Both the position numbers and the translations under genes were made by a program. From Candidatus Woesearchaeota archaeon (GTDB taxonomy: Archaea > Nanobdellota > Nanobdellia > Woesearchaeales > UBA11576), in the NCBI GenBank assembly GCA_018668595.1, contig JABJCP010000035.1:62001-126000 (forward strand): a stretch of 64,000 bases of DNA, given 5' to 3'. Under the pieces are notes generated by a model. That model saw only the letters and a list, made by a program, of their open reading frames with translations, made no database searches and was not told where the DNA came from. Below, piece after piece: positions 1,177 to 20,019 of the stretch; position 1 is the stretch's first letter; the number at the start of each line of letters is the position of its first letter.

Positions 1177-1195
1177 AATATAAAAGAAAAATAAA

Positions 1196-2356: not shown

Positions 2357-2369
2357 AAATTAAAAAAAC

Positions 2370-2434
2370 AAAACAAAATGTTACAAACAACAAAAGCAAA
2401 TCAAGCAAATGAATCTTTTGCACTTAAAAAACTG
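2370..2434 (+). repeat. 65-nt perfect direct repeat, copy 1 (leader and gene start)
   Basis: Bases 2370-2434 equal bases 3383-3447 exactly. The copy covers 8 bases before the ATG and the first 19 codons up to KKL, and stops at the first base that differs in the tag. The two genes differ widely further down. Confidence 0.95.
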
Positions 2435-3370
2435 CATGGCATTAAGCCCAAAGGAGTTAAAGCTAAATTAGCATGTTCTAATTTTGAACTTTTGGTAGAT
2501 TGTTATGATTTTTTTATAGATTATTCTTCTGATACTTTCAAAATAAAAAGTAATGCTACTATTTTTGATGATCTTCATAAATTTAAATCTAAAAATTATG
2601 GTTTGATAAAGCAAAAGTTAGAAAATGTTTTATTCACAAAAAATAATTTAGAAGAATTTATTCTTGCAAAGTCAAATCAAGATTATCTTGAATTTGAAAG
2701 AGCAGTTGTTGCTGTTTATTCAGGTATTTTAATTGATTTGTTAACTGAAAGAAATAAATCAGAAGATAAATCTACTTCTTTTTATTTTAATGGTAATGGA
2801 AATAGGTTTGACCTTTTGTTTTTTGGTGCAAAAAATATTGGTGAATTAATTGTTGATAATTTTATTGGGGAAGGCATTTGTTTATCAGTTGGTGCTGATA
2901 ACGGAAAAGTAAATCTTGTTGCAGCAATTAATTGTCATCCAGAATATGGTCTTTTTGGTTTTGCAGGTATGGATAAAGGAGAAATAAATACTTTAATTGC
3001 AGTTGGCTGTTCAGGAAAAAATACGTTTATAAATTCAAATATTAGAGGTGGTAAAACAAAAAATTTGGTTTTTTTGAATAATGATTTTGATTTTGAAGGA
3101 CAGTACAGAAATGATGTTACAGGAATACCTTCTAAGATAGAGCATGCTGAAAATTTTTATTATTCTAATGCTTGCATATCTAGTAATGTTTCAGACATTG
3201 TTGAATTTTCTATAGGGTCAGATAATTATAGGAATCGCAAGTGGATTGATGCAAATATGCCTCAATTAAATGAACTTGCAAATGTTGTTGCTAATGGTTC
3301 TGAGCAAAATAAAATTATTGCAGTAAGAAAAATTCAATATTTAATAAATGGAGTTAATAATTACAATTAA
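2378..3370 (+). CDS. Tag-plus-solenoid family protein, 330 aa
   Basis: Start MLQTTKANQANESF, then tag at 15-28 with His instead of Lys/Gln (KKLHGIKPKG). Core N138-G-N-G and RFDLLFFGAKN lead into about four coils (NFIGEGICLSVG, NCHPEYGLFGFAG, GCSGKNTFINSN). The first 57 coding bases and the 8 bases before the ATG are identical to those of the next gene, although the bodies differ. This is a recent copy of the 5' end alone or a gene-conversion tract. Confidence 0.93.
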   Translation: MLQTTKANQANESFALKKLHGIKPKGVKAKLACSNFELLVDCYDFFIDYSSDTFKIKSNATIFDDLHKFKSKNYGLIKQKLENVLFTKNNLEEFILAKSNQDYLEFERAVVAVYSGILIDLLTERNKSEDKSTSFYFNGNGNRFDLLFFGAKNIGELIVDNFIGEGICLSVGADNGKVNLVAAINCHPEYGLFGFAGMDKGEINTLIAVGCSGKNTFINSNIRGGKTKNLVFLNNDFDFEGQYRNDVTGIPSKIEHAENFYYSNACISSNVSDIVEFSIGSDNYRNRKWIDANMPQLNELANVVANGSEQNKIIAVRKIQYLINGVNNYN

Positions 3371-3382
3371 AAATTAAAAATT

Positions 3383-3447
3383 AAAACAAAATGTTACAAA
3401 CAACAAAAGCAAATCAAGCAAATGAATCTTTTGCACTTAAAAAACTG
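3383..3447 (+). repeat. 65-nt perfect direct repeat, copy 2 (leader and gene start)
   Basis: Second copy of the repeat at 2370-2434. The spacing between copies, 1013 bases, is one gene length. Confidence 0.95.
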
Positions 3448-4431
3448 AAGGGAATAAAACCCAAAGGAGTTAAAACTAAATATACAACTCCTCTAGAATT
3501 AATAACTAAAGCGGGAAATAAATTAATTAATGATATTAAGTCTAGAGAACTTTCTCATTTAGTAGATTGTATAAATGTAGTTCCTGAATTTAACCAAGCA
3601 TATTTGAGGGTGAAGGATTTTGTCGACCATAATCTGCCTGATTTGGATTTTACTGTTGATGATTTGAAATCGTATATACTAGCTCACTCTAAAGTTGATT
3701 TACCTTCTAGAAATGCTCCTCTTGGTTTGTATACAGGAGTTCTTCTTTCACTTCTTTGTATGCAGAATAAAGAAAAAGGAGAACGGACTATTTTTTGTAT
3801 GGATGGTCAGGGTGAGTATTTTCCTTATTTGTTCTTCTTGGCAAATCAGGTTGATGTTTTAGCTTTAAATAATTGGAAAGGTGATTGCATTTGTAGGGGT
3901 GTAGCGGGATTTGGAGGTCAGGCAAATATGGTTATTGGTTCTAATTTAGAAAGTATTGATGGTTTTAGAGACATGGGGTGTGAGGGAGGTAGTTCTGGTT
4001 TAGTTATAGCTAAAGAAGGAAATCAAACAGTTGATATTTGGCTTAATAGTTTACTTGCAGTTAGCTCTGGTTATTCAGACTTGCTTATTGTTGATAATTT
4101 TAAAGGTATTCTATTTGCAGGTAAAGAAGATAACAATCCTGCCACAAAATTCTTGTGGACTTCATCTGCTGCAGAACAAAGTGATTTATCAACTGAAAAA
4201 TATATTGAGTTGATTACTGTTGCAAGAAAAGATTTAGAAACTAATCATTTGAAAAACATAACATTTGTAGATAAATATTACCCCGAACAGGTAGAAAACT
4301 ACAAAAAGAACTTCAAAGTTCGAGAAATGCTTAATCTAGTCGACAAATTAAATTCAGAACCTGAAAACAAGCAGGTCGAAACTGTTTTACAATTAGAAAA
4401 AATCTACAAAGAGGTTAAATATTTAGAATAA
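3391..4431 (+). CDS. Tag-plus-solenoid family protein, 346 aa
   Basis: Tag at 15-28 in the GGA-ATA-AAA synonymous form, unlike its 5' twin at 2378. Core D138-G-Q-G is followed by FPYLFFLANQ and coils NWKGDCICRGVAG and NLESIDGFRDMG; the next ones are irregular. The tail (KYYPEQVENYKKNFKVREML) pairs with the member at 130. So the gene is a mosaic: front end like 2378, back end like 130. A single A separates its stop from the next ATG. Confidence 0.93.
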   Translation: MLQTTKANQANESFALKKLKGIKPKGVKTKYTTPLELITKAGNKLINDIKSRELSHLVDCINVVPEFNQAYLRVKDFVDHNLPDLDFTVDDLKSYILAHSKVDLPSRNAPLGLYTGVLLSLLCMQNKEKGERTIFCMDGQGEYFPYLFFLANQVDVLALNNWKGDCICRGVAGFGGQANMVIGSNLESIDGFRDMGCEGGSSGLVIAKEGNQTVDIWLNSLLAVSSGYSDLLIVDNFKGILFAGKEDNNPATKFLWTSSAAEQSDLSTEKYIELITVARKDLETNHLKNITFVDKYYPEQVENYKKNFKVREMLNLVDKLNSEPENKQVETVLQLEKIYKEVKYLE

Positions 4432-4432
4432 A

Positions 4433-5554
4433 ATGAATCAAAAACTTTCACTTAAAAAACTAAAAGGCATCAAGCCCAAAGGAGTTAAGGTTAAACCTAG
4501 TTCTAAACTTCAGTCTATGATTGAGTTAGAAAAGAAAGTTGTGGACAGGTATGGCAAACTTGAATATGAATTTCCTACTAGTAGCGCTCTTAGTTGTGAG
4601 TTTAAAGAAGAATCTTATGGTAATTTATATAGGAGATTTGAGCCTGAATTTGAAAAGTCAAATTTTTCAAAACAAGATCTTGTTAATTATGTTAATTATT
4701 GTTTTGCAGACGATTCTTATGATACTCCGTCTGAATTAATAGTCAGGGGTTTTTATTCTGGAGCTTTGTTAGAGTATATTAGTAAACAAGCTAAACAACG
4801 AGATGAATATTTGTGTTTAGAAATCAATGGAGAAAATAATTCTTTTGATCATTTATTTGCATTTGCAAGAAATCCTTGTGATTTATTTTTAGAAAATGCA
4901 ACTGGACGTAAAATTTGTGAAAGGTTTGGTTTTCATTCAGGATTTAATAATTTAGCATTGTTCAATATTTCGGGAGACAACATAGGTCATGTTTTAGGTG
5001 CTAATTCAGAGAAAGGAGGAAATATTATTTTAAGTAATATTTCTGGAAATATGTTATTTGAAGGAGCACTTGTTGGAACAAACATAAATTCCCTTACTGC
5101 TTCAGATATTAAAGGATACTGTTTTTCTCAGGGAGCTAACTTGTTTGATTTAGATTTAATTATATTAAAAAATGTTTTAGATGTAGCAGGGTTATCTTTT
5201 TATTCAACAGAGGCAGATGTTGTTTGTTTTGAAAATGTTTCATCAAAAGATCTAATCAGTGCAGAGAATGATTTCAGGATATTTAGAGAGTCATATATTC
5301 ATTTACTTCTTTCAAAAAACTTATCTTCTAATTTGGATGAGCATTTCACTTTACAATTTGGTTCGTCATTTAATGATTCTACAAGACATGAAGATTTACC
5401 CAAAAGTTTTAATTTCCACAAAAGATATTTAGGAATTAATACAATTTTAAATTTAGTAAAAAATTATAAAAAGTTCGAAGACAGGTCTGATTTTTTTAAA
5501 AGATTTGATGAGTTAAGAGTTAGTTCAAAAAATAAATTTGAAAAACGACTTTAG
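4433..5554 (+). CDS. Tag-plus-solenoid family protein, 373 aa
   Basis: Tag at 6-19 after MNQKL. The core is reduced: N132-G-E-N replaces GxG, then SFDHLFAFARN. About five coils follow (NATGRKICERFG, NISGDNIGHVLG, NISGNMLFEGAL, DIKGYCFSQGAN). The tail is divergent and basic (SSKNKFEKRL). The stop is TAG, then 21 nt to the next start. Function unknown. Confidence 0.92.
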   Translation: MNQKLSLKKLKGIKPKGVKVKPSSKLQSMIELEKKVVDRYGKLEYEFPTSSALSCEFKEESYGNLYRRFEPEFEKSNFSKQDLVNYVNYCFADDSYDTPSELIVRGFYSGALLEYISKQAKQRDEYLCLEINGENNSFDHLFAFARNPCDLFLENATGRKICERFGFHSGFNNLALFNISGDNIGHVLGANSEKGGNIILSNISGNMLFEGALVGTNINSLTASDIKGYCFSQGANLFDLDLIILKNVLDVAGLSFYSTEADVVCFENVSSKDLISAENDFRIFRESYIHLLLSKNLSSNLDEHFTLQFGSSFNDSTRHEDLPKSFNFHKRYLGINTILNLVKNYKKFEDRSDFFKRFDELRVSSKNKFEKRL

Positions 5555-5575
5555 CATGGCTTAATAGAATAAAAA

Positions 5576-6964
5576 ATGACGCAACAACAAACACAACAAG
5601 TAAAAAACATACAAACAGTTCAAACTAGTTTTGCGCTTAAAAAACTGCAAGGCATAAAGCCTAAAGGAATTAAGGTTAAAGATGATTCTGCATTTGGATC
5701 TTTAGTCGATGTATGTAATTCTATTTTTGATGCAGATTTAATTATTGAAGATTTTATGGGTAGAGTTAATAATCATGGAACTTTTTCTAATATTAGAGAT
5801 TATTCTGCAGAAAATTTAAATGAGGTGAATTTTAATAATGCTGATCTAACTAATTTTATTTTTTCTAGAATTAATTCTGATTGCGATGAATTAGAAGCTA
5901 AAATAGTTGGCATGTATTCATCTGCACTTTTGGAAATTTTAACTGAAAATAATAGAGAAAAAAATCTAAGTACTAGATTTTATATTAATGGAGACGGTAA
6001 TGAGTTTGATTATTTATTTTTTGGTGTTTGTAATTTTGATGAATTGATTGTTGATAATTTTAAAGGAAATAATATTTGTGAGGGTGCATGTAGTGGAGGA
6101 AATACAGGCAATTTTTTAGCTTTGCTCAATTTAGAAGGAGATAATATCGCTGAGGGTATTGGAGGAGGTAAACGGCAAATTTTAGAAACAGGAGAATATG
6201 TTGGAGGTCTTAATCATTTAGTTGTTTCGGGGTGTAATTCGTCTAGAGTTTGTGATTATATGGCGGGAGGAGGTTATATTGGCACTTGTTTATTTTTAGA
6301 TAATAAAAAAGTGGAAAGTGTCGGTTACATGGCTATAAATCATCTTGGAACTATTGATTCCTTAATTGCGTACAATAACAATTTTTCTGCTAGATTGTTT
6401 CCCAATATTGGTTCTAATGAGTCTTATATTGGTTTATCTATTTTGGAAGATAATGTTTCATATGATACAATATTTTCTGATTTTTCTCAGGGTAATGTTA
6501 AGCTACGTTTATTTGATTTAATGGTTTTAAGAAATAATATCTGTAATACTTTATTATACAACTCAGGATTAGAGTCAAGACCTTCTGGAAAAATTATTGC
6601 TTCAGGCAATCAAGGTTTTAGAATGACTGTTCCTAAAAAAACATCTGTTGCTAATGATTATTTTGTTCGTAAGGATAATGATTTTATGAGTGTTGAGGAT
6701 TTTGATCGTAATTGTGTTGAACAGGAAAATAGAGTTGAACTTTATGATTCTGTATTATCTGAACATAGAATAGATGATGTTATGTGTATTGTTAAGTCAA
6801 TTAATACAGATGATCATGATGATATGATTCAAAAAGTAAAACAGATTGAGGCAATTAGGAATCAAACCAAGCACTTGTATAAAAATACTGGAATGATTCA
6901 ATATTCATCAAACGCTTTTCAAGATGAGAAACTAAAAAAGGAAATATTGGAGAAATTCAAATAA
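5576..6964 (+). CDS. Long tag-plus-solenoid family protein, 462 aa
   Basis: Second longest member. A Gln-rich start (MTQQQTQQVKNIQTVQTSF) precedes the tag at 20-33 and is nearly shared with the member at 7011. Core N138-G-D-G, then about seven coils, some with insertions (NFKGNNICEGAC, NLEGDNIAEGIG with a ten-residue insert, GCNSSRVCDYMAGG, NKKVESVGYMA, NNNFSARLFPNIG). After the tail helix it has an extra C-terminal extension ending EILEKFK. A 46-nt A-rich gap follows. Confidence 0.92.
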   Translation: MTQQQTQQVKNIQTVQTSFALKKLQGIKPKGIKVKDDSAFGSLVDVCNSIFDADLIIEDFMGRVNNHGTFSNIRDYSAENLNEVNFNNADLTNFIFSRINSDCDELEAKIVGMYSSALLEILTENNREKNLSTRFYINGDGNEFDYLFFGVCNFDELIVDNFKGNNICEGACSGGNTGNFLALLNLEGDNIAEGIGGGKRQILETGEYVGGLNHLVVSGCNSSRVCDYMAGGGYIGTCLFLDNKKVESVGYMAINHLGTIDSLIAYNNNFSARLFPNIGSNESYIGLSILEDNVSYDTIFSDFSQGNVKLRLFDLMVLRNNICNTLLYNSGLESRPSGKIIASGNQGFRMTVPKKTSVANDYFVRKDNDFMSVEDFDRNCVEQENRVELYDSVLSEHRIDDVMCIVKSINTDDHDDMIQKVKQIEAIRNQTKHLYKNTGMIQYSSNAFQDEKLKKEILEKFK

Positions 6965-7010
6965 TAAACAAAACACAAAACAAAATAAAAAATAGAATAA
7001 AAAAAACAAA

Positions 7011-8120
7011 ATGATACATCAACAAACACAACAAGTACAAAACATTGAAACAGTTCAAAATAGTTTTGCGCTTAAAAAACTGAAAGGTATTAAACCTAAA
7101 GGAGTTAAAGCTAAAGATAAATCTAAGTTAGAACATTTAATTAATTTAGGAATTGATACTGTTGATAGGTGTGGTCATTTAAATTCTCAAGATGATATTC
7201 TTGATTATATTTATTGGAATGTTAAACGTTCTGCAGGTGATTACAATGAGTCTGATTTAAAGCAAACTGTTATGGCATTATCTGTAACAGAGTTGAATAG
7301 TGAAAATTATGTCGTTGGTTTTTACACGGGTGCGCTTCTCAGTAATTTAACCGAAAGAAATAGAGCGAAAGGTAAGAGAACTCAGGTTTGTATTGATGGT
7401 GATGGCATGACTTTTAATTATTTGTTTAATCATGCAAAACACGTTGATGATTTAATTATTAAAAATTTCGAAGGAACTGATATGTGTAGTCAATTGGGTC
7501 GTGAGGGAGATGTTGATTTTGTTATGGGTTCAAATTTATCAGGTTTTGGACCTATGGATTTGTTAGGTATGAATGGTTCTGTTAATTTTGTTATTGCAAA
7601 AGATATAGAAGCGAATTCACCTTTGTTTCGTGTTGCCGAAAATGGTTCTTCAAAATTTATTGCAGGAATTAATTTAATTGATGGGATGATGGGAAACACA
7701 TTTGATGTTGGAGATTCTGATCTTGCTATCATAAAGGATTGTTATTTTAAACAAATTATTGATCGTAATCAATGGAATCGTAAAGCAAATGTGGTTTATG
7801 TCGACTCAATTAAGGGTAAGTTAACTCTTTCAGAATATAACGAGCCTAATGTTGGAACTTGTATACATACAGATAATAGTGGTGAGTGGTTTGAGAGAAA
7901 ATGGTTTGAGAAAACAATAAGCGCGAACAGAATTATCTCCGATTCTAATCAAGAAGAATTCACCAACGCAGTTAAACAATACAAAATTAATCAACTATTA
8001 GAACAGATTAACTTAATAGATGAAGCTCCAGAACAAGATGTTTTCAAACACGTCGACGAATTCAAAAAGATTTACTATTCAATAGAGCCTTTATTAAAAA
8101 AAGCAGGCATTAAAAAATGA
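7011..8120 (+). CDS. Tag-plus-solenoid family protein, 369 aa
   Basis: Start MIHQQTQQVQNIETVQNSF resembles the previous gene; tag at 20-33. Core D129-G-D-G, then NYLFNHAKHVDDLIIKNFEG. About four coils (NFEGTDMCSQLG, NLSGFGPMDLLG, DIEANSPLFRVA, NLIDGMMGNTF). The tail ends YSIEPLLKKAGIKK. The stop TGA overlaps the next ATG by 4 nt, showing both that TGA is a stop here and that translation may be coupled. Confidence 0.93.
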   Translation: MIHQQTQQVQNIETVQNSFALKKLKGIKPKGVKAKDKSKLEHLINLGIDTVDRCGHLNSQDDILDYIYWNVKRSAGDYNESDLKQTVMALSVTELNSENYVVGFYTGALLSNLTERNRAKGKRTQVCIDGDGMTFNYLFNHAKHVDDLIIKNFEGTDMCSQLGREGDVDFVMGSNLSGFGPMDLLGMNGSVNFVIAKDIEANSPLFRVAENGSSKFIAGINLIDGMMGNTFDVGDSDLAIIKDCYFKQIIDRNQWNRKANVVYVDSIKGKLTLSEYNEPNVGTCIHTDNSGEWFERKWFEKTISANRIISDSNQEEFTNAVKQYKINQLLEQINLIDEAPEQDVFKHVDEFKKIYYSIEPLLKKAGIKK

Positions 8121-9010
8121 ATCAAGCACAAACAAAACAAAACACCCGAGCAAGAGAAACCTCGCAACCCCTACAAAATAGTTTCGCACTCAAAAAACTG
8201 CAAGGCATCAAGCCTAAAGGAGTTAAAGCTAAAGATAATTCTAATTTAGAAAATTTGTTAAATATATTTGATATGAATTGGAGTGATTTTTTAAAAAGCA
8301 GGATCAATTTACCTAGAGCGCATATTTCAACTACAGAATGTTTAGATCTTAAACGAGAAACTAAAACTTATTACCCTCAAATTAATTATTCAGAATCTGA
8401 TTTGATTTCGTTTATTTTTAGTAAATCGCGTCCAGAAGATGCAATTTATTCAGAGTATGTTGGCATGTATACTTCGGCTTTACTAGAAATGTTAATTGAA
8501 TCAAATAAAAATGAAGGAAAGCGGACTGTTTTATATTTGGATGGTCAGGGTAATGATTTTCCTTATTTATTTTATCATTTGAATGATATAGATATTCTTA
8601 TTTTGAATAATATGTCCAGTTTTAATTTGTGTTATAACTTTGGTTTTCCAGGTGGGAAAAAAATTAATATGTTAATAGGTATTAATATTGAAGATGACCA
8701 GGTTTTCAGAAATACAAAAGGTGGAAGTTCAGGCGGTCTTTTGGCAGGTTATAATATTAACGGCAGAAGATCTTTTGATGTTAAAGAAAAATCAGCTGAG
8801 TTTGATTGGATTGTAGGCGAGAATGTTTGTGGAGGAAATTCGTTAATGTTGATAAATAAGTTCGCGTGTTCTTTTGATGAACTAAATTATTCTGCAAAAC
8901 AAGTTATGAGTTTAATCAAATCAATTCCCAAAAAAAGTTACGATGAGGTCATAAAGACTGCACTCAAAATTGAATCTATTTACAAATCCATATTACCAAA
9001 AGAAGAATAA
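8117..9010 (+). CDS. Tag-plus-solenoid family protein, 297 aa
   Basis: The N-terminal extension before the tag (24-37) is long and carries charged residues (KQNTRARETSQ). Core D142-G-Q-G and FPYLFYHLNDIDILILNN lead into three to four coils (NMSSFNLCYNFG, NIEDDQVFRNTKGG, NINGRRSFDVKEK, NVCGGNSLML). The solenoid is short and joins the tail directly (YNSAKQV region, IESIYKSILPKEE). Followed by a 59-nt A-rich gap in which I see no clear promoter. Confidence 0.92.
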   Translation: MNQAQTKQNTRARETSQPLQNSFALKKLQGIKPKGVKAKDNSNLENLLNIFDMNWSDFLKSRINLPRAHISTTECLDLKRETKTYYPQINYSESDLISFIFSKSRPEDAIYSEYVGMYTSALLEMLIESNKNEGKRTVLYLDGQGNDFPYLFYHLNDIDILILNNMSSFNLCYNFGFPGGKKINMLIGINIEDDQVFRNTKGGSSGGLLAGYNINGRRSFDVKEKSAEFDWIVGENVCGGNSLMLINKFACSFDELNYSAKQVMSLIKSIPKKSYDEVIKTALKIESIYKSILPKEE

Positions 9011-9069
9011 TTAATAAAAACATAATCTAAAAAAACTAAAAAACAAAACATGCAAAGAACAAAACCAAA

Positions 9070-10002
9070 ATGAACCAAACACAAACAAACACTAACTTAG
9101 CTTTAAAAAAGCTAAAGGGAATTAAACCTAGAGGAATCAAAGTAGATACTTGTAGTTCAACTAATAAAAAACTCCTAGACATTGGTGTTGAAGTCATTGA
9201 TATTTTCAGTAAAGATTCCCAATTTCATATTGCAGATAGGGATGATAATGCTGATGAATACTATTACAAAAGTTTAACTGAATTTTTAGATGATAAAATT
9301 AAATTCAACTTCAAAGAATCTGATTTAGAATTTTTTATTTATGCAAATTGCAATCAGGATTATTCTAGTGCAGAGTATGGTTTGATGGGTATGTTTTCAG
9401 GTTGGCTTTTATCAACTTTAACAAAAAGAAACAAACAAAAAAACAAGCCAACGACTTTTTACATTAATGGAAGAGGTATGACTTTTAATCATTTATTCCT
9501 TAGAGCGAATGAGATTGATGAATTAATTGTTGATAATTTCAGAGGAGATTATTTATGTAATAGGTTAGGTCATATCGATGGAAATGTAGATCTTGCTGCA
9601 ATTATTAATTGTTCTGCAAACAAAAATCTTGGTGAATATTTTTGTTCAGTTAGAGGAAAAGGAAATGCTTTAATTGTTGCAAACTCTTATTCAAAAACAA
9701 TTTGTTGGGGTGTTTCAAGTCATTATGGAAAAACCAATAAAGTTTTTTTCATAAATTTAAAAGGAGATCAAATTGGAGATTGTTCTTGTTTTCCTGATGG
9801 CACTGTTGATTTATGTATTGAATACAATGTCCAACGGGAAAATATGGGTGCTGGGGGTATTGAAGCAACTAAACCATACAAAAATAATCATTCAAAAAAA
9901 TTGTTCCCACAACTCGGTGATTATGCTCAAATATTGTCAGAATCTGACGATAAAAATCAAAAAATAAATATAATTAAACAAATATATAACTTAATGAGGT
10001 AG
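9070..10002 (+). CDS. Tag-plus-solenoid family protein, 310 aa
   Basis: Tag at 11-24 is a variant (LKGIKPRGIK), and its DNA uses other codons (AAG-CTA in place of AAA-CTG). Core N133-G-R-G, then MTFNHLFLRANEIDELIV. Coils: NFRGDYLCNRLG, NCSANKNLGEYF, NSYSKTICWGVS, NLKGDQIGDCSC. The closest relative is the member at 26720, of equal length, with matching coils such as VDLAAIINC against VNLAAIINC. The stop TAG lies inside the ribosome-binding region of the next gene, 6 nt before its ATG. Confidence 0.93.
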   Translation: MNQTQTNTNLALKKLKGIKPRGIKVDTCSSTNKKLLDIGVEVIDIFSKDSQFHIADRDDNADEYYYKSLTEFLDDKIKFNFKESDLEFFIYANCNQDYSSAEYGLMGMFSGWLLSTLTKRNKQKNKPTTFYINGRGMTFNHLFLRANEIDELIVDNFRGDYLCNRLGHIDGNVDLAAIINCSANKNLGEYFCSVRGKGNALIVANSYSKTICWGVSSHYGKTNKVFFINLKGDQIGDCSCFPDGTVDLCIEYNVQRENMGAGGIEATKPYKNNHSKKLFPQLGDYAQILSESDDKNQKINIIKQIYNLMR

Positions 10003-10008: not shown

Positions 10009-12108
10009 ATGTCTGATGAAAAAATAAATGCAACAAATGTTATTGAAGTCACTGGCGATGATGGCCAAACGCATGAGGGAAAGCAAGATATTATGGATAA
10101 TATTAAGCGCTTGACTGAAATTAATGAAAAGGTAGCAAAGCATGTACAATATATTGAAGATCACAAAGATGAATTAGAAGAAAGAATAAATTCTATTTTT
10201 GAAGATGTTAAAAATGAGTATTATCGTCCGCCTATTTCAGGTCCTGATTTAATTTGGGAGTTTGTGCAGGAATCAGGTAAGGGTACTGCATACTTTGATT
10301 TTATGGAATCACGAATTGGAGCAAATGTTCCTTTTTTATTATTGTTAGAAGAATATCAAGATTTTGAATCTGTAACTAGAGGTTTGTTTGCTCATGAGTT
10401 TGGGCATTATAAAAATCATCCTATGAACTTGAGCCTAAGTTTATATCTTAGTTATTGGGCGCAAAAAACTTTTGGAGATTATGGTTCTCAGATTTATCCG
10501 TTGTATACTGATTTTCAGGATAATACAATTATTGAACTCCAAACTAATTTTGAAGAAAACTTAAAAGATTTATTGAGGTCTACGTGGGAGATTAGTTCAA
10601 AAGATGCAGTATCTTCTGCATTAATGGAAGGGTATAATCATTTTTTCAAAGAGTTAAACATAAACACAGATCTTGATCGTTTTGAACCAGAAATGCGTGA
10701 AAAAATTGATGAGGCAATTGTTACTTTGAAAGATTTTACTAGAACCTCGTCTCAAGATTATGGTATGCAATATGCATTATTAAGAAGTTTCGGCAAAGCA
10801 ATCAAGCCTTTAATGCCTAAGCCAAAAGAAAACTGGGTTAAATCTTGTGAGAGTAGTGGTCAAAGTGGATCTGGAAAAACTAGGCCTTGTCCTGATAAGG
10901 GAGGTCCTGATTGTTCTGGAACTTGTGGTGGTAAAGGAACTCAATCTGGTCAAGGAAGTGGATCTGGAAATCCGATGGACGATCTTCTTAATGGAAAAGG
11001 AGGAGGATCAAGCATGATAACTCCTGAAGATATTAATAATCTTCCTCAACATAAACGTCAAAAAGTTAAAGAAGCAATTCAAGAACTTGTTAAAAAACTT
11101 AATAGAGGAATTTATGAAGATGTTAAAGATCATTTTTTAGGTAAGGACAAAGAAGAAAAGAATGATTCGTCTAAAGGGGTAGGTATTGGTTTAGATCCTA
11201 CAGATTCTGTTGGTTTAGCAGATCAAAAAACTATTGCGTATTATACTGATTGTGCTAGAGCCTTTGGTATTTATGTTCGTCCGAGGAGAACTTTGAGTAT
11301 TTCTTCTGTTGATATTCCATTTGGTAAGCGAGAATTTAGACCTAGTGATCAGACAATGGGTATTGATATGCGTTTTTCAGGTGGTAAGATATTGCCTGGT
11401 TTAACACAGATTACTAGAAAGGAACCAATTCCATTTCCAGCGACGAGAGAAATTATTCCAAGACTTGTAATTTACAAAGATGCATCAGGTAGTATGAGAA
11501 ATCCTATTCAGGAAAAATGTTATGGTACTATTGCAGGTTGTGTTCTTGCTCTTAGTTATCTTCGTAGTGGTGGAGAAGTTAATATTGCAGTTTTTGACGC
11601 TGCAACCACTGAACTTTTTACTAGCAGAAAAGAAGAAGAACTTTTAGCTTTGCTTTGCGGTTACAAAGGTGGCGGTACTGTTGTTGACATGGAAGCACTA
11701 AAAAAAGATTTAGAAGGAAAAGATAGTGCGTATTTACCTATGGATCGTAATATTACTGTCGAGGAAGCTAAGCGTAATCCGTTGTTTAGAAAGTATTTGA
11801 AAAAACAAGCTCGTATTTCAGGTTATGAAAAAATTAAATCAGGGCAGTTAACAGATTTTGTCATTATTACTGATGGTGGTATTGCAAATCTTGATGAGAT
11901 GATGAGTTTCTTTGAAGCTAATTCAGAAAAATACAGGCCAACAATACTTCACACAGGAGGTTTTGACCTAAGTGTAGATGGTTATGATGGTAAAACATCT
12001 GGAATTTTTAAAGGCACAGCAATCTATGCGGCACACACCAGAGAAGACATAATCAACATGACCAAGAAAACTATGCAGAATAATTTATTATCAAAATGCC
12101 AGAGATAA
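10009..12108 (+). CDS. Putative zinc metallopeptidase with C-terminal VWA domain, 699 aa
   Basis: The only non-family gene in the window. Residues 128-139 contain AHEFGHYKNHPM, an HExxH zinc-binding and catalytic motif (H129, E130, H133); an acidic cluster DFQDNTIIE at 168-176 could supply a third ligand. A linker at about 284-340 is rich in Gly/Ser and has four Cys. A VWA domain follows, with a complete metal-binding (MIDAS) set: DASGS at 491-495, T557 in GGGTV, and D622 in ITDGG. The order metallopeptidase-like domain then VWA recalls the predicted metal-dependent peptidases of COG3864 (DUF2201 plus VWA-like), though this protein is longer; that match is from memory. No MoxR-type ATPase, their common partner, is present. 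No signal peptide, so probably cytoplasmic. A role in processing or assembling the family proteins is only a guess from position. Confidence 0.85.
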   Translation: MSDEKINATNVIEVTGDDGQTHEGKQDIMDNIKRLTEINEKVAKHVQYIEDHKDELEERINSIFEDVKNEYYRPPISGPDLIWEFVQESGKGTAYFDFMESRIGANVPFLLLLEEYQDFESVTRGLFAHEFGHYKNHPMNLSLSLYLSYWAQKTFGDYGSQIYPLYTDFQDNTIIELQTNFEENLKDLLRSTWEISSKDAVSSALMEGYNHFFKELNINTDLDRFEPEMREKIDEAIVTLKDFTRTSSQDYGMQYALLRSFGKAIKPLMPKPKENWVKSCESSGQSGSGKTRPCPDKGGPDCSGTCGGKGTQSGQGSGSGNPMDDLLNGKGGGSSMITPEDINNLPQHKRQKVKEAIQELVKKLNRGIYEDVKDHFLGKDKEEKNDSSKGVGIGLDPTDSVGLADQKTIAYYTDCARAFGIYVRPRRTLSISSVDIPFGKREFRPSDQTMGIDMRFSGGKILPGLTQITRKEPIPFPATREIIPRLVIYKDASGSMRNPIQEKCYGTIAGCVLALSYLRSGGEVNIAVFDAATTELFTSRKEEELLALLCGYKGGGTVVDMEALKKDLEGKDSAYLPMDRNITVEEAKRNPLFRKYLKKQARISGYEKIKSGQLTDFVIITDGGIANLDEMMSFFEANSEKYRPTILHTGGFDLSVDGYDGKTSGIFKGTAIYAAHTREDIINMTKKTMQNNLLSKCQR

Positions 12109-12158
12109 AAAGTAAGAAAATAAAGAAAACAAAAACGAAATAATAATACAACAACAAG

Positions 12159-12375
12159 GAAATATTGGTCGTAGCTGCAAATTAAAAAAGCAGCACTGCC
12201 TTGGCAAATTAGTTGAATGCAAAGTATTCAATTGTTTCAAAGCAAAGCTTTGATGATTTCAACGACGAGCGTGGCAAGTTGTTGAGTTACTGCAGAAAAT
12301 CTGGTGATTCATGCAACCAGATTTTCGAAATGTAAAATCCAGAGGATTTCATAAACTGCCGCAGTGCTGCAAAAA
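12159..12375 (+). ncRNA. Structured element A: stem-closed cluster of hairpins
   Basis: GCAGCACTGC at 12190-12199 is perfectly complementary to GCAGTGCTGC at 12361-12370 and would close a domain of about 180 nt. Inside are hairpins at 12211-12233 (8 bp with one G-U), 12237-12253 (7 bp, AAA loop), 12296-12325 (10 bp, 10-nt loop) and 12335-12349 (6 bp), plus a weaker one at 12259-12285. A five-base GCTGC at about 12174 could pair with GCAGC at 12190 instead of the closing stem. No tRNA, RNase P or SRP RNA signature is recognised. The strand is assumed from the flanking genes; DNA-level function is also possible. Confidence 0.45.
12201..12285 (+). repeat. Imperfect 15-nt direct repeat inside element A
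   Basis: TTGGCAAATTAGTTGA (from 12201) and GTGGCAAGTTGTTGA (from 12271) share TGGCAA and GTTGA with a 70-nt offset. They may mark two related halves of the element. Confidence 0.4.
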
Positions 12376-12483
12376 AGAAAATAAATCAAAACAAAATAAC
12401 AACAATTCAAAAATCACATTTCAAATTTTTTAGTCACCAAAAAAAGAGGTTCTTTCACGTATAGCATCAGGTATATCACATAT

Positions 12484-12540
12484 CATATACTAAACGCTAT
12501 GCAAAATTTGTAATTTAATCAAATTTAGCGTTTGTATATG
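12484..12540. other. Long imperfect hairpin of 21 bp
   Basis: CATATAC at 12484-12490 pairs with GTATATG at 12534-12540, AAACGCT at 12492-12498 with AGCGTTT at 12527-12533, and AAATTTG at 12504-12510 with CAAATTT at 12520-12526. The breaks are a one-base bulge (12491) and a five-base bulge (12499-12503); the loop is 9 nt. CATATAC could also pair with GTATAT just upstream (about 12471), giving a competing fold. Confidence 0.7.
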
Positions 12541-12543
12541 CTG

Positions 12544-12571
12544 ACGAAAAGTGCCAAAAATCACTTTTCGT
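12544..12571. other. Perfect 10-bp hairpin
   Basis: ACGAAAAGTG at 12544-12553 and CACTTTTCGT at 12562-12571 are perfectly complementary around an 8-nt loop. It starts 3 nt after the long hairpin. No T-run follows on the + strand, so it does not look like a classic terminator. Confidence 0.75.
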
Positions 12572-12589
12572 TCATCACGTTTACGTGTT

Positions 12590-12693
12590 TGCATTGAGGG
12601 AAGTAGAGTTAACTACTTAGAGTCTTTTATATTCTAGACCTCGCCCGGGTCAAGACTCTAAAGACGACATTCTCTTCCCTTTTTGCAGACGTG
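12590..12693 (+). ncRNA. Structured element B: closed domain with two inner hairpins
   Basis: TGCA at 12590-12593 with TGCA at 12684-12687, and AGGGAA at 12597-12602 with TTCCCT at 12675-12680, form an outer stem. Inside are AAGTAG/CTACTT (12601-12606 and 12613-12618) and TTAGAGTCTT/AAGACTCTAA (12617-12626 and 12652-12661), the latter capped by a GACC/GGTC mini-stem around CCCGGG. CACGT at 12576 could extend the outer stem with ACGTG at 12689. Adjacent stems share two bases, so not all can form at once. It could be an RNA gene, a 5' untranslated control element or a DNA structure. Confidence 0.4.
12625..12633 (+). promoter_or_regulatory. TATA-like AT stretch, possible promoter
   Basis: TTTTATATT sits about 150 nt upstream of the first gene of the long downstream run. 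It resembles an archaeal TATA box, but it also lies in the loop region of element B, and AT-rich words are common here. Weak call. Confidence 0.15.
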
Positions 12694-12783
12694 TACCTAA
12701 ATAAAAAAAACAGAAAATAAAAAACAAAACAAACAAAATCAAACAAGAAGGAAAAAATAGAAATTAAAAAAACAAAACAAAAA
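12694..12783 (+). other. A/C-rich leader before the gene at 12784
   Basis: Ninety bases dominated by A with AAACAAAAC-type words and almost no secondary structure. Short versions of the same composition (TAAAATAAA, AAACAAA) precede nearly every family gene, so it is probably an unstructured 5' leader. Confidence 0.5.
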
Positions 12784-13509
12784 ATGAACACACAAACACA
12801 AACAACACAAGCAAATGAAACTTTTGCATTAAAGAAACTCAAAGGCATCAAGCCTAAAGGAGTTAAACATAAACCTAGTTATACTACTCTTCAATCTCTT
12901 TTAGAAATCAAAGATGAATTTTTAGATACTGAACATGCGTTTAGTGCGTCAAAACATACATCTTTTATTCATTCTTCTGATACTATAAAATATAATTATG
13001 AACGTATTTATCAAAAGGTTTCAGAGAATTATCTTAAAACTGTTAGTTTTTCTGAAAAAAATCTTTCTGATTTTATTTTTGCTAATGTTAATAATGATTT
13101 ATCTAATTATCAATCAGGCATGCTTGGATTGTTTACTGGTTGCATGCTGGATATGTTATTTCAAAAAAACAAATCAAAAAACCAAAGAACTATGTTTCAC
13201 ATTAATGGTCAAGGAAATAGATTTGATAATTTATTTCATGCTTCAAAATTTATTGATGTTTTATTTGTTGAGAATTTTTATGCAGATACTATTATTGGTT
13301 ATTATGGAGATTGGATTGGAGGAATTGCAAATTATGTTCTTTCTGTTAATCCAGAAGGCAGGATTGTGCATGAAGACACTCCATTTTACAGAAGAGATAT
13401 GGTGTCAAATCAAAAAACAGATCATGAAGTTATTAAATTTCTCAGATCGGTTGAAACAAGTTTTCCAAATCAAGTTAATCAATACATTAAATATATTACT
13501 ATGGATTAA
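12784..13509 (+). CDS. Short tag-plus-solenoid family protein, 241 aa
   Basis: First gene of the uninterrupted downstream run. Start MNTQTQTTQANETF, tag at 15-28, helical region and core (HINGQGNRFDNLF) are normal, but only one coil is left (NFYADTIIGYYGDWIGG) before a short ending PFYRRDM...YIKYITMD. It belongs to the short class with 21034, 21726, 54299 and 59616. Its leader resembles that of the member at 28641. The stop is 2 nt before the next ATG. Confidence 0.92.
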   Translation: MNTQTQTTQANETFALKKLKGIKPKGVKHKPSYTTLQSLLEIKDEFLDTEHAFSASKHTSFIHSSDTIKYNYERIYQKVSENYLKTVSFSEKNLSDFIFANVNNDLSNYQSGMLGLFTGCMLDMLFQKNKSKNQRTMFHINGQGNRFDNLFHASKFIDVLFVENFYADTIIGYYGDWIGGIANYVLSVNPEGRIVHEDTPFYRRDMVSNQKTDHEVIKFLRSVETSFPNQVNQYIKYITMD

Positions 13510-13511
13510 AA

Positions 13512-14591
13512 ATGAATCAAACAAACTTATCACTTAAAAAACTGAAGGGAATAAAACCTAAAGGAGTTAAAATTAAACCTAGTTCTACTCTTGAAACTTT
13601 ATCTACTGTTTGCGATTTGCTTATTGATAAGTATGGTGAAGATCATGGAATAATGTGGGGGAATGCAGTTGATGATGGATTTGTACCTATTTGTAATTAT
13701 GTCGAATCAGATTTACTTAAAGATGTTGAGTTTACTGAGTTAGATCTTGAGACATTTGTGTTAGCTAAGCCTAATCAAGATTATAGTGTTAGAGTAAGTA
13801 AAGTAATTGGTTTTTATACTTCTGCTTTGCTAAGCATTCTTACAAAAAGAAATAGTAAAAAAGGTAAAAGAACTAAGTTGAGAATTGATGGATCTGGTTT
13901 AACGTCTGATTGTTTATTTCATTATGCAGGTCATGTAGATGAATTAATATTGGAGAATTTTTCTGGAGGAAATATTGGCAGGCATATAGCGCCAAATAAA
14001 GATCAAGAACAAGCTAAGCTTATTGCTTTTGCAAATGTTCAGACAAGTAATTCTTATTCATTTTTTGATGATGCTTCTGGAATTGTTTGCGGTTCTTTCC
14101 AAAATCCTGTTGAAATGATTTGTTCTATTAATAGTATTTACAAACGCGAACATTCAATTGATTTTAGCAGTGCTCATGCACTTGAAGCCTGGTATGTTAA
14201 TAATTGGTCTGAACCAGATAAGATGAGATTTCACATGTATTGTGTGAATGACTTGTGGTTGCTAAACAGCTCTACCTCAGTTTTAAAAATAAATGCTCGC
14301 GGATTATTGGATAATTTAGTTATTATCAATACAGTTCCAAATAAAACAATAGACTATATCGACGGTGAGGATTTAGATAATTCTCAAAAAGTAAAAAACA
14401 TGATTGTATACGATGTGAATAACCCTGAAGTTGGAATAAAAAATTTTGAGGTAGAAAATTTAATTTCAGGAAAAAACGCACTTAATCAATTCAAATATTT
14501 AATTGATATTGTAAAGACTATGCAAAATCAGAATTATGATGAAACAATGAATAACATAAATCAAATAAAATCAATATACCGAAAAAAATAA
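13512..14591 (+). CDS. Tag-plus-solenoid family protein, 359 aa
   Basis: Tag at 7-20. Pairs with the member at 39949: both have KRTKLRIDG or KKTKLRIDG at the core, a long Trp-containing middle (DLWLLNS), and near-identical tails (VKNMIVYDVNNPEV, ALNQFKYLIDIV, MQNQNYD). Coils are of the W-x-L-N-S/N type rather than the N-x-x-G type. The 15-nt gap after it (14592-14606) resembles the coding end LYEN of other members, perhaps a recombination scar. Confidence 0.92.
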   Translation: MNQTNLSLKKLKGIKPKGVKIKPSSTLETLSTVCDLLIDKYGEDHGIMWGNAVDDGFVPICNYVESDLLKDVEFTELDLETFVLAKPNQDYSVRVSKVIGFYTSALLSILTKRNSKKGKRTKLRIDGSGLTSDCLFHYAGHVDELILENFSGGNIGRHIAPNKDQEQAKLIAFANVQTSNSYSFFDDASGIVCGSFQNPVEMICSINSIYKREHSIDFSSAHALEAWYVNNWSEPDKMRFHMYCVNDLWLLNSSTSVLKINARGLLDNLVIINTVPNKTIDYIDGEDLDNSQKVKNMIVYDVNNPEVGIKNFEVENLISGKNALNQFKYLIDIVKTMQNQNYDETMNNINQIKSIYRKK

Positions 14592-14606
14592 AACATTTAT
14601 ACGAAA
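14592..14606 (+). other. Spacer resembling a relic of another member's 3' end
   Basis: AACATTTATACGAAA before the ATG at 14607 closely matches CAATTATACGAAA, which encodes QLYEN and runs directly into the next ATG at 15736 and at 41042. Here the upstream frame has already ended, so the same junction is left non-coding. Confidence 0.4.
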
Positions 14607-15749
14607 ATGATACAAACACAAACACACCAAAATTTCGGATTAAAGAAACTAAACGGCATCAAACCTAAAGGAATCAAAGTAAAAAAAGCTTCACTTACTG
14701 AGAAGATTCTTCAAGCTAGTGATTTTTTTATTGATAAATTTAAGGATGAAAAATTTGATTGGAGATCTCGTGATGATCAGTTGGATGTGATTTATGATTC
14801 TTGTTTAGATCAAGTTAGATCTGTAATAAATACTCCTAATTTCGATCAAAAGCATATTATTGATTTTATTCATGCAACTTCAAATAATGATTTTGATAAA
14901 GTATCTAATGAACTTAATGGTTTATTTTCGGGCGTGCTACTCCAGGTTTTGACAGAGCATTATCATAAAGAAAACGCAAAAGCTTCTTTTTGTTTTGATG
15001 GAGATAATATTAAGTTTGATTGTTTATTTTACAGATGCAGATGTGTAGATGAATTACTGATTGAGAATTTCCAAGGGGATTTTGTTGGAAATAAAATAGG
15101 TTCTTCTGGAGGTAAAGTAAATATTTTGGTTGGAAAAAATATTAAAGGTTATCAGTCCCTTGCAGGTGCAGGACGTAAAGGCAATGCTGGTTTGGTTTTT
15201 GGCGAGGATTTAACAGGAGGAATTTGTTTAAATGGTTGCGGTTTTATTGGTAATGTTGATATTGTTGTAGGTTATAAGATTAGAGGTGATGGTGTTATGC
15301 AGGCAATTGGTTCAGGAAAAGATGATGTTAAGGGACGTACAGATTTAGTCATAGCACATGATATTGATTGTAAGAGTGATTTGTTTGTATACTCTGCAGA
15401 GGCAGGATTAATCAACAATATTTTCGTCGGTAAAATTAGTGATTGTTATGCTTCTGTTGAAACTCGTGAAGATTATTATAAAATGGGTAGTTTAGGTTAT
15501 GTTCGACCTAAACCTAAAGCTGTTGGAACTATTTATTGTGAAAAAAAAGACGCGAGTTTTTTAACATATTTGAGCGCAAGGCAGTACTTTTCCAGAGGAG
15601 GATATAGAGAAAAGGAATATTATGATTTTGTAAAATCTCGAAACATCAATAATAGTTTAGATTTATTAGAATCAAAACCCTCAACTTCAGAGGATTTACT
15701 AAACAAAGCAAGAAAGATAAAACAATTATACGAAAATGCAACAAACTAA
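14607..15749 (+). CDS. Tag-plus-solenoid family protein, 380 aa
   Basis: Tag at 11-24 is GLKKLNGIKPKGIK. Pairs with the member at 57217 (SLTEKILQAS against SLTEKIIQAS; KASFCFDG core in both). About five coils: NFQGDFVGNKIG, NIKGYQSLAGAG, DLTGGICLNGCG, KIRGDGVMQAIG with a short insert, DIDCKSDLFVYS. The last 14 nt, coding for the end of QLYENATN, overlap the start of the next gene. Confidence 0.93.
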   Translation: MIQTQTHQNFGLKKLNGIKPKGIKVKKASLTEKILQASDFFIDKFKDEKFDWRSRDDQLDVIYDSCLDQVRSVINTPNFDQKHIIDFIHATSNNDFDKVSNELNGLFSGVLLQVLTEHYHKENAKASFCFDGDNIKFDCLFYRCRCVDELLIENFQGDFVGNKIGSSGGKVNILVGKNIKGYQSLAGAGRKGNAGLVFGEDLTGGICLNGCGFIGNVDIVVGYKIRGDGVMQAIGSGKDDVKGRTDLVIAHDIDCKSDLFVYSAEAGLINNIFVGKISDCYASVETREDYYKMGSLGYVRPKPKAVGTIYCEKKDASFLTYLSARQYFSRGGYREKEYYDFVKSRNINNSLDLLESKPSTSEDLLNKARKIKQLYENATN

Positions 15750-16743
15750 CTTATCACTTAAAAAACTGAAAGGAATAAAACCCAAAGGAGTTAAGGTTAA
15801 ACCTAGCTCTAATCTAGATCATCTCTTTGAATTGCGTGATGTTATTATGAGAGATTTTGAGTTAAAGCGTTCAACTGTTTATACTGAGGAACGTTATGAT
15901 GTTCTTTATGAAATTGTGTCTGATAAATTAGCTGATGTTGATTTTACCGAGGACGATCTTAGTGCGTTCATTGTGGCTGATGCTCAGGAATTTCATGAGT
16001 TTATGTTTAAGGCAGATATTGGTGATGATGAAGCTGATATTAATGGTCTATATTCGGGAACTTTACTTCATTTACTTACAGAAAGAAATGAAAAATTAAA
16101 CAAAAGAACTTATGTGCATATAGATGGTCAGGGTGGAATTTTTAATATGTTATTTAATTTTGTTAGAAAAGCAGATGTTGTTATTGTTGAAAATATGCAT
16201 GGTACTTATTGTTGTCGATGTGCAGGATCTTTTAATGGTTATTTTACTGTTTTGGCAGCAAATAATTTGACTGGAATGAGTGTTTTTAATGCTGTCGCTT
16301 CGCATAATGGTTTTGGAGTTTCTGTTTTTGGAAATAACATAAATGATATTCAGTTTGCAGGTGGTGCTGGAAATTATGAAGGAAAACTTTCGTATCTTGT
16401 TGCAGAAGAGCTCAAATATCATAATAATCTTAATCATATCGGGTTTAGAGGAAATGTTGATTTTGTAGGAGTTAAGAATGCTCTTGTAGTATCACAACTC
16501 GGAGAGGTAAATAAATTTGTTGGTTATAATATAGAACATTTCTCTGAGAAAAATCCTGGTTCATCCGAGATTTTTCTAAACACTCCTGAAGCAGAAGAGT
16601 TATACGAGAACAGTTTTCAAAAAAAACAGTTTGATCAGATATTTAATAGTAATTTAAACTTTGCTGACAGAGAAGCAGTACTAAAAGCTACAGAACATCA
16701 ATACAAAATAATTCAAGAATTAAAAAAGAAAAGAGAAATATAA
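15736..16743 (+). CDS. Tag-plus-solenoid family protein, 335 aa
   Basis: Start MQQTN, tag at 7-20, placed inside the last codons of the previous gene. Core DGQGGIFNMLF. About five coils (NMHGTYCCRCAG, NNLTGMSVFNAV, NNINDIQFAGGAG, ELKYHNNLNHIG, NALVVSQLG). The tail FNSNLNFADREAVLKATEHQ belongs to a small tail class also seen at 28641 and 47495. The tail ends in a basic stretch, KKKREI. Confidence 0.93.
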   Translation: MQQTNLSLKKLKGIKPKGVKVKPSSNLDHLFELRDVIMRDFELKRSTVYTEERYDVLYEIVSDKLADVDFTEDDLSAFIVADAQEFHEFMFKADIGDDEADINGLYSGTLLHLLTERNEKLNKRTYVHIDGQGGIFNMLFNFVRKADVVIVENMHGTYCCRCAGSFNGYFTVLAANNLTGMSVFNAVASHNGFGVSVFGNNINDIQFAGGAGNYEGKLSYLVAEELKYHNNLNHIGFRGNVDFVGVKNALVVSQLGEVNKFVGYNIEHFSEKNPGSSEIFLNTPEAEELYENSFQKKQFDQIFNSNLNFADREAVLKATEHQYKIIQELKKKREI

Positions 16744-16746
16744 AAA

Positions 16747-17814
16747 ATGATACAAACACAAACAAACTTATCACTTAAAAAACTGAAGGGAATAAAACCT
16801 AAAGGAGTTAAACCTAGACCTAGCTCTAATCTGGAAAAGCTTATTAGTATTACAAACTCAGTTATTGAAAAAAATTCTAAGGATGATGTGACAATTAGAG
16901 TTAACACCATTCATTCTGACATGCATAAAAAGATTTATCGTGATTTAAAGCAAGATCTTTTGAAAGAAATAGAATTTTCTAAAGAAGATCTTTCTGCTTG
17001 GGTTTATGCTCATTCTAATTCAGTAGGTGGTGATGCATACAAAAAAACTCTGGGTGTTTGCTCGGGAGTATTATTGACTATCTTAACTGAGCGCAATAAA
17101 AGAAGAGGTAAAAAGACAATATTAGATATTGATGGAAACAATCAAGAATTTTCTCATTTATTTTCTCATGGGCGGAAAGTAGATGAATTAATTATTAGAA
17201 ATTTTGTAGGAGATAGTATTTGCCGTAGTTTTGGAGATAGTTTTGAATCTTATGAGGGGTATGCTAAGAAGTTATGTCTAATTAATATTTCTGGCAAAGA
17301 TTTTGCTGATTTTTGTGGTTATAAAGGCAAAGTTGATTCGCTATATCTAATTAACAATTCAGAAAATGCAATCATGGGCAAACCGTTTGCTAAAAATATT
17401 TGGATGGTGAATAATAATTTTGGTTCTGATGCAACATTAGCAAAGATTGGACGTGCAAATAGAATCTGGTTTTTTAATAATTATGCAAATTCTATCAAGT
17501 ATGATGCAGGTCCAGATATTGCTGAGTTATTTTTTAATGTTCTTAAAGATGGCTGTGATTTTAACAGGATGCATGCTACTTCAGATCCAATATATTCTGC
17601 AAAATTCAAAAATTTTGTTTTTTATGATCCTAAAGATAATTTCATTAATTTTACAAACATTGCTGCAAAGAAAATGCTTGTCGGAGAGGAGGCATTGAAT
17701 AAATATGGCAAAATAATTGAGCTTTCAAATTTATTAGATAATAAAAATGTTGAAGAGATTATGACAATATTAAACCAAATAGAAAAAGTTTACGATATAA
17801 TAGATTCAAAATAA
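16747..17814 (+). CDS. Tag-plus-solenoid family protein, 355 aa, Trp/Asn coil type
   Basis: Tag at 9-22. One of three close relatives with 25668 and 46424 (all with KTILDIDG or KTIIDIDG at the core, RNFxG at the first coil and a LYLIN/VYLIN coil). The later coils have the form aromatic-Asn-Asn: IWMVNNNFG, IWFFNNYAN. They lack the usual Gly at position 4. Tail ends IEKVYDIIDSK. A TAAAATAAA spacer of 6 nt leads to the next ATG. Confidence 0.93.
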   Translation: MIQTQTNLSLKKLKGIKPKGVKPRPSSNLEKLISITNSVIEKNSKDDVTIRVNTIHSDMHKKIYRDLKQDLLKEIEFSKEDLSAWVYAHSNSVGGDAYKKTLGVCSGVLLTILTERNKRRGKKTILDIDGNNQEFSHLFSHGRKVDELIIRNFVGDSICRSFGDSFESYEGYAKKLCLINISGKDFADFCGYKGKVDSLYLINNSENAIMGKPFAKNIWMVNNNFGSDATLAKIGRANRIWFFNNYANSIKYDAGPDIAELFFNVLKDGCDFNRMHATSDPIYSAKFKNFVFYDPKDNFINFTNIAAKKMLVGEEALNKYGKIIELSNLLDNKNVEEIMTILNQIEKVYDIIDSK

Positions 17815-17820
17815 AATAAA

Positions 17821-18942
17821 ATGATACAAACAAACTTATCACTTAAAAAACTGAATGGCATCAAGCCAAAAGGAGTTAAAGTTAAACAAAACTCGCGTCT
17901 AGAAGAGTTGATTAATTATTTTAATTCTAGTGTTAGTTCATTGTCTTTTGAATATCTTTATTCCGCTTCGAACAAAGATATTGTTGAAAACGTAAAAACT
18001 ATGTTTCCTAATTTGTCAGAGTCTGATTTGGACAGTTTTATTTTTGCATGTTGCGCGGATAAAGAAGATGATACTGATAGGATTAAACGTTTGAAAGGAA
18101 AGTTTACAGGTGTTTTATTATCTGCAATTTCTTCTTTGAAAAAAGAAGGAGGTTCTCGTGCAGATTTTTATTTTGATGGTTTTAATGTTGAGGTAGATTA
18201 TTTATTTAAGTGTGCAAATGGTTTTGATAGTCTTATTGTTGAAAACATTGTAGGTAATGAAATTTGTTGTGGTGTTTCAGGTGGCAAGTCTACTATTTTA
18301 GCAGGGAGAAATATTAGAGGCATGGATGCTTTTGCAAAAATTAACTGTGATGAGAAGTTTGGTTTTATCTATTTAGAAAATACTCAAGGTTATCAGCCTC
18401 TTGAGGGTGTTAGAAATGCGAATATTATTATTTTGAAAAAATCTGGCTCTGGAAGTATGGCTAAAACTATTGCTAGTTGGGAAGGGGATGTTGATTTGTT
18501 AGTTGTTGACGGTTGTAACTGTCAAGAGCATTTTTTGTATCAGTTGGCTTCTTATGGAGGTCATGTAAAGAATTTGATTGTGTCTGATACTGATGTTCAA
18601 CTTTTTATGAACTTGTGGGCGTATAATGAGGGCAGGATAGATAATATTTGGTTTAATAATGTTAGCTATTCGTACAAATTAGGTGCGTCTAGTGCTGAAG
18701 GTAAAAATCCAAGTGTTATTGGGTGTGTCGCATCTAATTCATTGAATAGTTCTCAATTTGATGAAATTGATTATATTCAGAATATATTGATTCAGAAATC
18801 TAATCCTAAAGAGTATGAATTATTTGTTAAATCTAATTGTTTAGATGCGATGCTTTACAAGTCTCGTGAACTTGATTTAACTGATCATAAATCATTTTTT
18901 GAAAAAGTGGTTGATTTAAAAAATTTGGTGGGTGTAGAATAA
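17821..18942 (+). CDS. Tag-plus-solenoid family protein, 373 aa
   Basis: Tag at 7-20 (KKLNGIKPKGVK). Core is DGFNVEVDYLFK, so the second Gly of GxG is missing. About six coils: NIVGNEICCGVSGG, NIRGMDAFAKIN, NTQGYQPLEGVR, a Gly/Ser-rich one (KSGSGSMAKTIA), GCNCQEHFLYQL, DTDVQLFMNLW. The tail is short (FFEKVVDLKNLVGVE). The stop TAA is followed immediately by the next ATG with no spacer. Confidence 0.92.
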   Translation: MIQTNLSLKKLNGIKPKGVKVKQNSRLEELINYFNSSVSSLSFEYLYSASNKDIVENVKTMFPNLSESDLDSFIFACCADKEDDTDRIKRLKGKFTGVLLSAISSLKKEGGSRADFYFDGFNVEVDYLFKCANGFDSLIVENIVGNEICCGVSGGKSTILAGRNIRGMDAFAKINCDEKFGFIYLENTQGYQPLEGVRNANIIILKKSGSGSMAKTIASWEGDVDLLVVDGCNCQEHFLYQLASYGGHVKNLIVSDTDVQLFMNLWAYNEGRIDNIWFNNVSYSYKLGASSAEGKNPSVIGCVASNSLNSSQFDEIDYIQNILIQKSNPKEYELFVKSNCLDAMLYKSRELDLTDHKSFFEKVVDLKNLVGVE

Positions 18943-20010: not shown

Positions 20011-20019
20011 AAGATTAAA

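Follow-up and report, generated by a model that had tools for sequence, protein, structure and literature searches.

What is a single metallopeptidase-VWA (mpVWA) gene doing inside a long array of genes to which it is unrelated? The window in which this question arose, i.e., the whole stretch of 64,000 nucleotides that was analysed, is C22:62001-126000 of a 2.32-Mb genome, and the whole of contig C22 was read for the extent of the array. The array occupies C22:51348-133801 and holds 74-75 tagged paralogues, with 59 family reading frames inside the window. Every large open reading frame (ORF) of the array is on the plus strand, and all of these except mpVWA are family members. The gene and its surroundings in window coordinates are as follows.

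130..10002, plus strand: complete tagged paralogues 5' of mpVWA, nine in the window (19 counted from the array start)
9996..9999, plus strand: Shine-Dalgarno-like GAGG, 9 nt 5' of the mpVWA ATG (sequence)
10009..12108, plus strand: mpVWA gene, 699 aa, ATG start, putative partner of the MoxR gene heading the array
10393..10407, plus strand: HEFGH, putative zinc-peptidase motif, residues 129-133 (H129, E130 and H133 conserved in 20/20)
10510..10524, plus strand: D168-x3-N172, candidate additional residues of the active site (D168 in 19/20, N172 in 18/20)
10843..11010, plus strand: Gly/Ser-rich low-complexity linker joining the peptidase and VWA parts (sequence; low model confidence)
11479..11493, plus strand: MIDAS DASGS, residues 491-495 (D491, S493 and S495 conserved in 20/20)
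11677..11679, plus strand: MIDAS Thr557 (20/20)
11872..11874, plus strand: MIDAS Asp622 (20/20)
12109..12783, no strand: non-coding region 3' of the mpVWA gene, 675 nt (sequence)
12784..63499, plus strand: tagged paralogues 3' of mpVWA (array end at C22:133801)

The original prediction had described this gene as the only unrelated one among 60 paralogues, with intact HExxH and MIDAS motifs, its own Shine-Dalgarno-like site and the only large non-coding region on its 3' side, and it was borne out on each of these points. Thus, in 20 very diverged mpVWA homologues, with identity down to ~20%, the HExxH residues and all MIDAS residues (D491, S493, S495, T557 and D622) were invariant. Shine-Dalgarno-like tetramers were noted for just 18 of the 77 array ORFs, and both mpVWA (GAGG) and the MoxR gene (GGAGG) have such a site. 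The 675-nt gap is the largest non-coding stretch of the array, the next (344 nt) lying within a decayed paralogue. By direct protein search mpVWA is single-copy in the genome, a diverged homologue being located at C22:24388-26382 (E = 1e-18). The candidate for a third metal ligand is D168; the structure predicted for mpVWA was poor (pLDDT 43) because the alignment of four sequences from which it was made is too shallow, and the best match of the mpVWA profile to solved structures, that with projannalysin, was weak (E = 0.46).

No Rfam match was obtained for the non-coding gap 3' of mpVWA, in which two structured elements were noted.

12176..12424, plus strand (C22:74176-74424): copy of a structured repeat of ~200 nt, dispersed in the genome and not part of the module
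12590..12687: one strong hairpin (GGGAAG...CUUCCC; z = -4.4) with a T run after it

The first recurs about 40 more times across the genome, at roughly 70-80% identity, and has a multi-branched consensus in which 31 of 55 pairs were changed on both sides among 20 copies; it had no Rfam match, and it is possibly an undescribed structured RNA or a mobile structured repeat. A second copy of the hairpin was looked for across the genome and none was found.

The claim that no MoxR ATPase is present held for the window but failed beyond it. Reading of the whole contig revealed a MoxR-type AAA+ gene (490 aa, C22:49610-51082) that ends 265 bp short of the first paralogue of the same array and was invisible in the first reading because it lies 10.9 kb past the left edge of the window. 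Its protein matched AAA_3 (PF07726; 3.2e-8, 34 bits against a cut-off of 27), its best solved relative was 2r44 (1.8e-6), and its AAA+ residues, including Walker A and Walker B, were intact (G74, G77, K80, T81, E146 and R347 in 20/20, D145 in 19/20). Proteins of the DUF2201_N and metallopeptidase-VWA type (PF13203, PF09967) consist of a putative metallopeptidase region followed by a VWA domain and are often encoded beside MoxR. The present gene resembles them in this order of parts and in the nearby MoxR, but PF13203 had no match in the mpVWA protein or in the whole genome, remote kinship being possible.

Pairing of MoxR with VWA proteins has precedents (PMC13036017, PMC9976466), and in one of these a finger of the NorD VWA domain reaches into the ring formed by NorQ (PMC13036017). 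Like NorQ-NorD, RavA-ViaA and CbbQ-CbbO, the locus described here has adjacent MoxR and VWA genes, an intact MIDAS, an N-terminal domain, linker and VWA in that order, and a likely client gene adjoining. Unlike in those pairs, its N-terminal domain carries an invariant HExxH, and in place of one enzyme its likely clients form a family of 2 to about 75 tagged paralogues. Given the invariant HExxH, MIDAS and AAA+ residues and the NorD-like layout, a MoxR-mpVWA machine acting on tagged clients is therefore proposed. According to this proposal, to which we assign a probability of roughly 0.55, mpVWA is a subunit in a MoxR AAA+/VWA machine dedicated to the ~75 surrounding paralogues, its clients, which it clips in or near the tag. 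MoxR would form an ATP-driven ring, and the VWA domain would dock on it in the way NorD docks on NorQ, formation of this complex being suggested by analogy. The mpVWA/MoxR complex would recognise a client by its flexible N-terminal tag, and the putative peptidase domain would clip the client in or beside the tag, so that the client is released or switched. Among these steps, recognition of the tag by the machine is probable; cleavage of the client by the putative peptidase is put forward tentatively, at slightly under even odds.

A machine that recognises tagged proteins without cutting them, and that assembles, remodels or metal-loads them with the HExxH domain in a structural or adaptor role, would fit the characterised MoxR-VWA pairs, which are chaperones or remodellers (PMC13036017, PMC9976466, PMC4660213, PMC10585395), and NorD too is built from N-terminal domain, linker and VWA domain. 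Nevertheless, invariance of H129, E130 and H133 in 20 homologues is what would be expected of catalysis and not of a scaffold, and this reading is considered unlikely.

The nature of the clients was approached through an AlphaFold model of a family protein (pTM 0.88), which comprised a four-helix part, a parallel beta-helix and C-terminal helices. In this otherwise confident model the first ~28 residues were predicted to be disordered, with a pLDDT of about 59 for the tag. The best VIA-align match of the model was PL6 lyase 7o7t (Z 11.2, rmsd 4.5, 249 aligned); tailspikes ranked just below it, and Foldseek alone gave no significant match. Judged from the model, the paralogues are predicted to be parallel beta-helix proteins. 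Pfam, NCBIfam and PADLOC gave no match of weight for the paralogues tested. Near-invariant residues outside the tag were structural ones (G, L, F, N), which makes a catalytic role unlikely, and from these residues a binding role is favoured for the family proteins. A diversified binding repertoire is the likely biological role. Positive selection on the bodies was not seen, omega being about 0.3-0.5 in close pairs, and a viral origin was rejected, as no relatives were found in viral contigs and no viral fold match was significant.

Machines that degrade proteins usually combine an AAA+ ring with a peptidase, and disordered N-terminal tags are typical degrons. Both this layout and the predicted disorder of the tag would suit a degradation or quality-control signal, with the machine limiting or destroying its clients (e.g., harmful effectors). 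However, the putative peptidase here is situated on the VWA partner and not in a closed chamber, and the maintenance of ~75 genes with a strictly kept tag would amount to costly self-destruction. Degradation is accordingly regarded as improbable.

In the MoxR-mpVWA proposal the tag carries the specificity, and its evolution was compared with that of the body in ten close paralogue pairs. The tag of the gene just 5' of mpVWA serves as an example.

9103..9141, plus strand: N-terminal tag, LKKLKGIKPRGIK (sequence)

Values of pS and pN were 0.51 and 0.039 for the 12-residue tag as opposed to 0.49 and 0.284 for the body (Fisher P = 2.9e-12). Since synonymous change was equal while amino-acid change in the tag was about 7-fold below that of the body, selection acted on the amino acids of the tag, i.e., the tag is under protein-level selection. 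Every module kept an L-x-G-I-like core in most of its family proteins, and tags differed for homologous cargo across genomes as well as between systems within one genome (G000, G226, G253 and G337). In a stricter test, in which the best N-terminal 12-mer was compared with the best 12-mer of the body, the tag was ahead in most pairs of both systems of the query genome (own1 and own2) and of G253, G257 and G137 and in about half of the pairs of G099, but was not ahead of the best body segment in G065, G244, G380, G226 and G138; the tag is thus not everywhere the best-conserved segment. A role as a basic nucleic-acid-binding or NLS-like peptide was rejected since charge is not kept (+4 to +7 in the query, mostly -6 to +1 in others).

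Across the genome, the DNA pattern of the tag was found in family genes only and was absent from MoxR and mpVWA. Besides the array, these genes include three that lie off it and run into a contig end (C9:77142-80635) and one orphan (C22:195732-196604), so the repertoire exceeds the array and, given that contig end, may be larger still. Within the window, positions 54945-56059 hold a decayed family member, apparently a pseudogene, made up of a short tagged ORF, a 344-nt gap and a tagless remnant.

Some codons of the tag are atypical (CTG 66% as opposed to 2% in bodies, GGC 62% as opposed to 8%), and the DNA stretch AAAGGAGTT varies little, as might be expected of a recombination or gene-conversion site by which the array was expanded and shuffled. 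Against the idea that such a DNA element explains the conserved tag stand the synonymous change, equal to that of the body beside a much lower amino-acid change, and the differences between the tags of different systems; this explanation is very improbable.

The association of mpVWA with the tag family was evident from other genomes. Thus, among 287 genomes of the order, the family profile was found in 8 and the profile of the close mpVWA subfamily, at very high score, in 3, all of them among the family's 8; the hypergeometric probability of this overlap, computed by hand, was about 1.4e-5 and rose to 5e-4 when the query genome was left out. Close mpVWA relatives always adjoined the family (six loci, the query locus included), and in the mpVWA tree the family-associated proteins formed one clade (100/100). 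Modules of MoxR, mpVWA and tagged beta-helix paralogues, with 2 to 17+ paralogues, were noted in other Woesearchaeota-type archaea.

G065: MoxR, 2 paralogues, mpVWA, 7 paralogues
G244: MoxR, about 13 paralogues, mpVWA, about 4 paralogues
G337 (archaeon S5B12_HD70; the same genome as L074, counted as one locus): MoxR, 1 paralogue, mpVWA, 1 paralogue
G380: MoxR, mpVWA, 4 paralogues
L075 (nzgw59): mpVWA and 2 paralogues on a short contig

A MoxR match was present at the mpVWA loci examined, except at G099b and where a locus was truncated at the end of its contig. These results uphold the original prediction that the gene belongs with the family, and both kinds of separation that it had considered were seen only in part. 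The gene without the family was found as distant relatives, which occur with MoxR and in many cases alongside tagged cargo of other kinds, and never as the close subfamily. The family without the gene was found in G023, G224 and G282, as solitary copies or fragments at contig ends, and in G226, where no close mpVWA was found though one tagged family gene is kept beside a frameshift-split MoxR reading frame; the link stands nevertheless. The solitary members of G224 and G023, where no close mpVWA was found either, are complete but lack the canonical tag. MoxR, mpVWA and the family thus very probably constitute one system, and inheritance of the machine together with dozens of look-alikes that share one tag suggests that the tag marks clients.

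Distant mpVWA homologues were found in 27 of the 287 genomes, almost always beside MoxR, and many of them adjoin small paralogue sets with an N-terminal motif of their own.

G099: cargo motif GKPEEKK
G226:C23: cargo motif LDDVLRGMKPQKPEE
G253:C41: cargo motif LDDLIRGYTARKPDEKRK
G257, G137 and G179: mpVWA beside paralogue sets with their own N-terminal motif
C22:20455-42932 (L009, L010), second system of the query genome: motif IIGNRK..SLDDLARQ

In this second system the diverged mpVWA homologue already mentioned (24388-26382) is accompanied by a putative P-loop ATPase (20455-21978) and by 17 paralogues, whose bodies are repeat-rich and propeller-like and whose tag differs from that of the main array. 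As the ATPase gene (C22:20455) had no match to the MoxR profile, it is only a putative partner. A one-client version of this system is present in G337. Between the second system and the MoxR gene lies a TldD/PmbA-type metallopeptidase gene (L010:3263-4762, i.e., C22:43263-44762; PF19289, 3.5e-6). A third tandem array of 10 paralogues (C22:5448-14166, in the region C22:550-14166, L008), near a DUF815-like AAA+ gene and without mpVWA, was dropped as a further tagged example, its N-termini not being specially conserved, and served as a control. Cargo bodies belong to several families, mutually unrecognised by profile comparison, and the mpVWA tree tracks them: homologues from G226, G253 and G280, which have a common cargo family, form another clade, and own2 and G337b a third. 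That mpVWA is a chance passenger, functionally unrelated to the family, could be argued from generic MoxR-mpVWA pairs without the family (G029, G045, G016, G073 and others) but is ruled out for practical purposes by adjacency in six loci, the monophyly of a family-restricted subfamily and the match of clade to cargo.

The closest parallel for the tag is provided by the vWA-MoxR ternary conflict systems with effector-associated domains (EADs; Kaur et al. 2020, PMC7159879), in which a core of MoxR and vWA is likewise joined within one operon by diversified partners, and which likewise have a common, often N-terminal element that is lineage-specific and matched to the locus. In contrast with those systems, the common element here is a short disordered tag and not a small domain, no copy of it was seen on either core component (MoxR and mpVWA), such a second copy being a defining feature of those systems, the paralogues tested had no recognisable effector domains of an enzymatic or toxic kind, and the hosts are DPANN archaea. 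By analogy, the proposed machine would work like NorQ-NorD combined with effector-tag coupling.

No prior description of tagged arrays of this size was found in the open-access literature searched. What had seemed an isolated oddity becomes a testable three-part system with natural replicates: one cargo fold occurs under different tags, other cargo bears other tags, and several genomes possess two systems each. The chances are about even that Woesearchaeota-type archaea possess a class of modular client-processing machines of this kind, in which large and diverse sets of binding proteins are recognised by MoxR and mpVWA through short N-terminal tags, with the tags as module-specific address labels and orthogonal machines side by side in one cell. 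If the tag is an address, it would provide a sequence-coded rule of client recognition for MoxR-VWA machines, whose choice of clients is poorly understood, and, if true, the proposal would show how an archaeon with a small genome can bring ~75 diversified proteins under a single machine.
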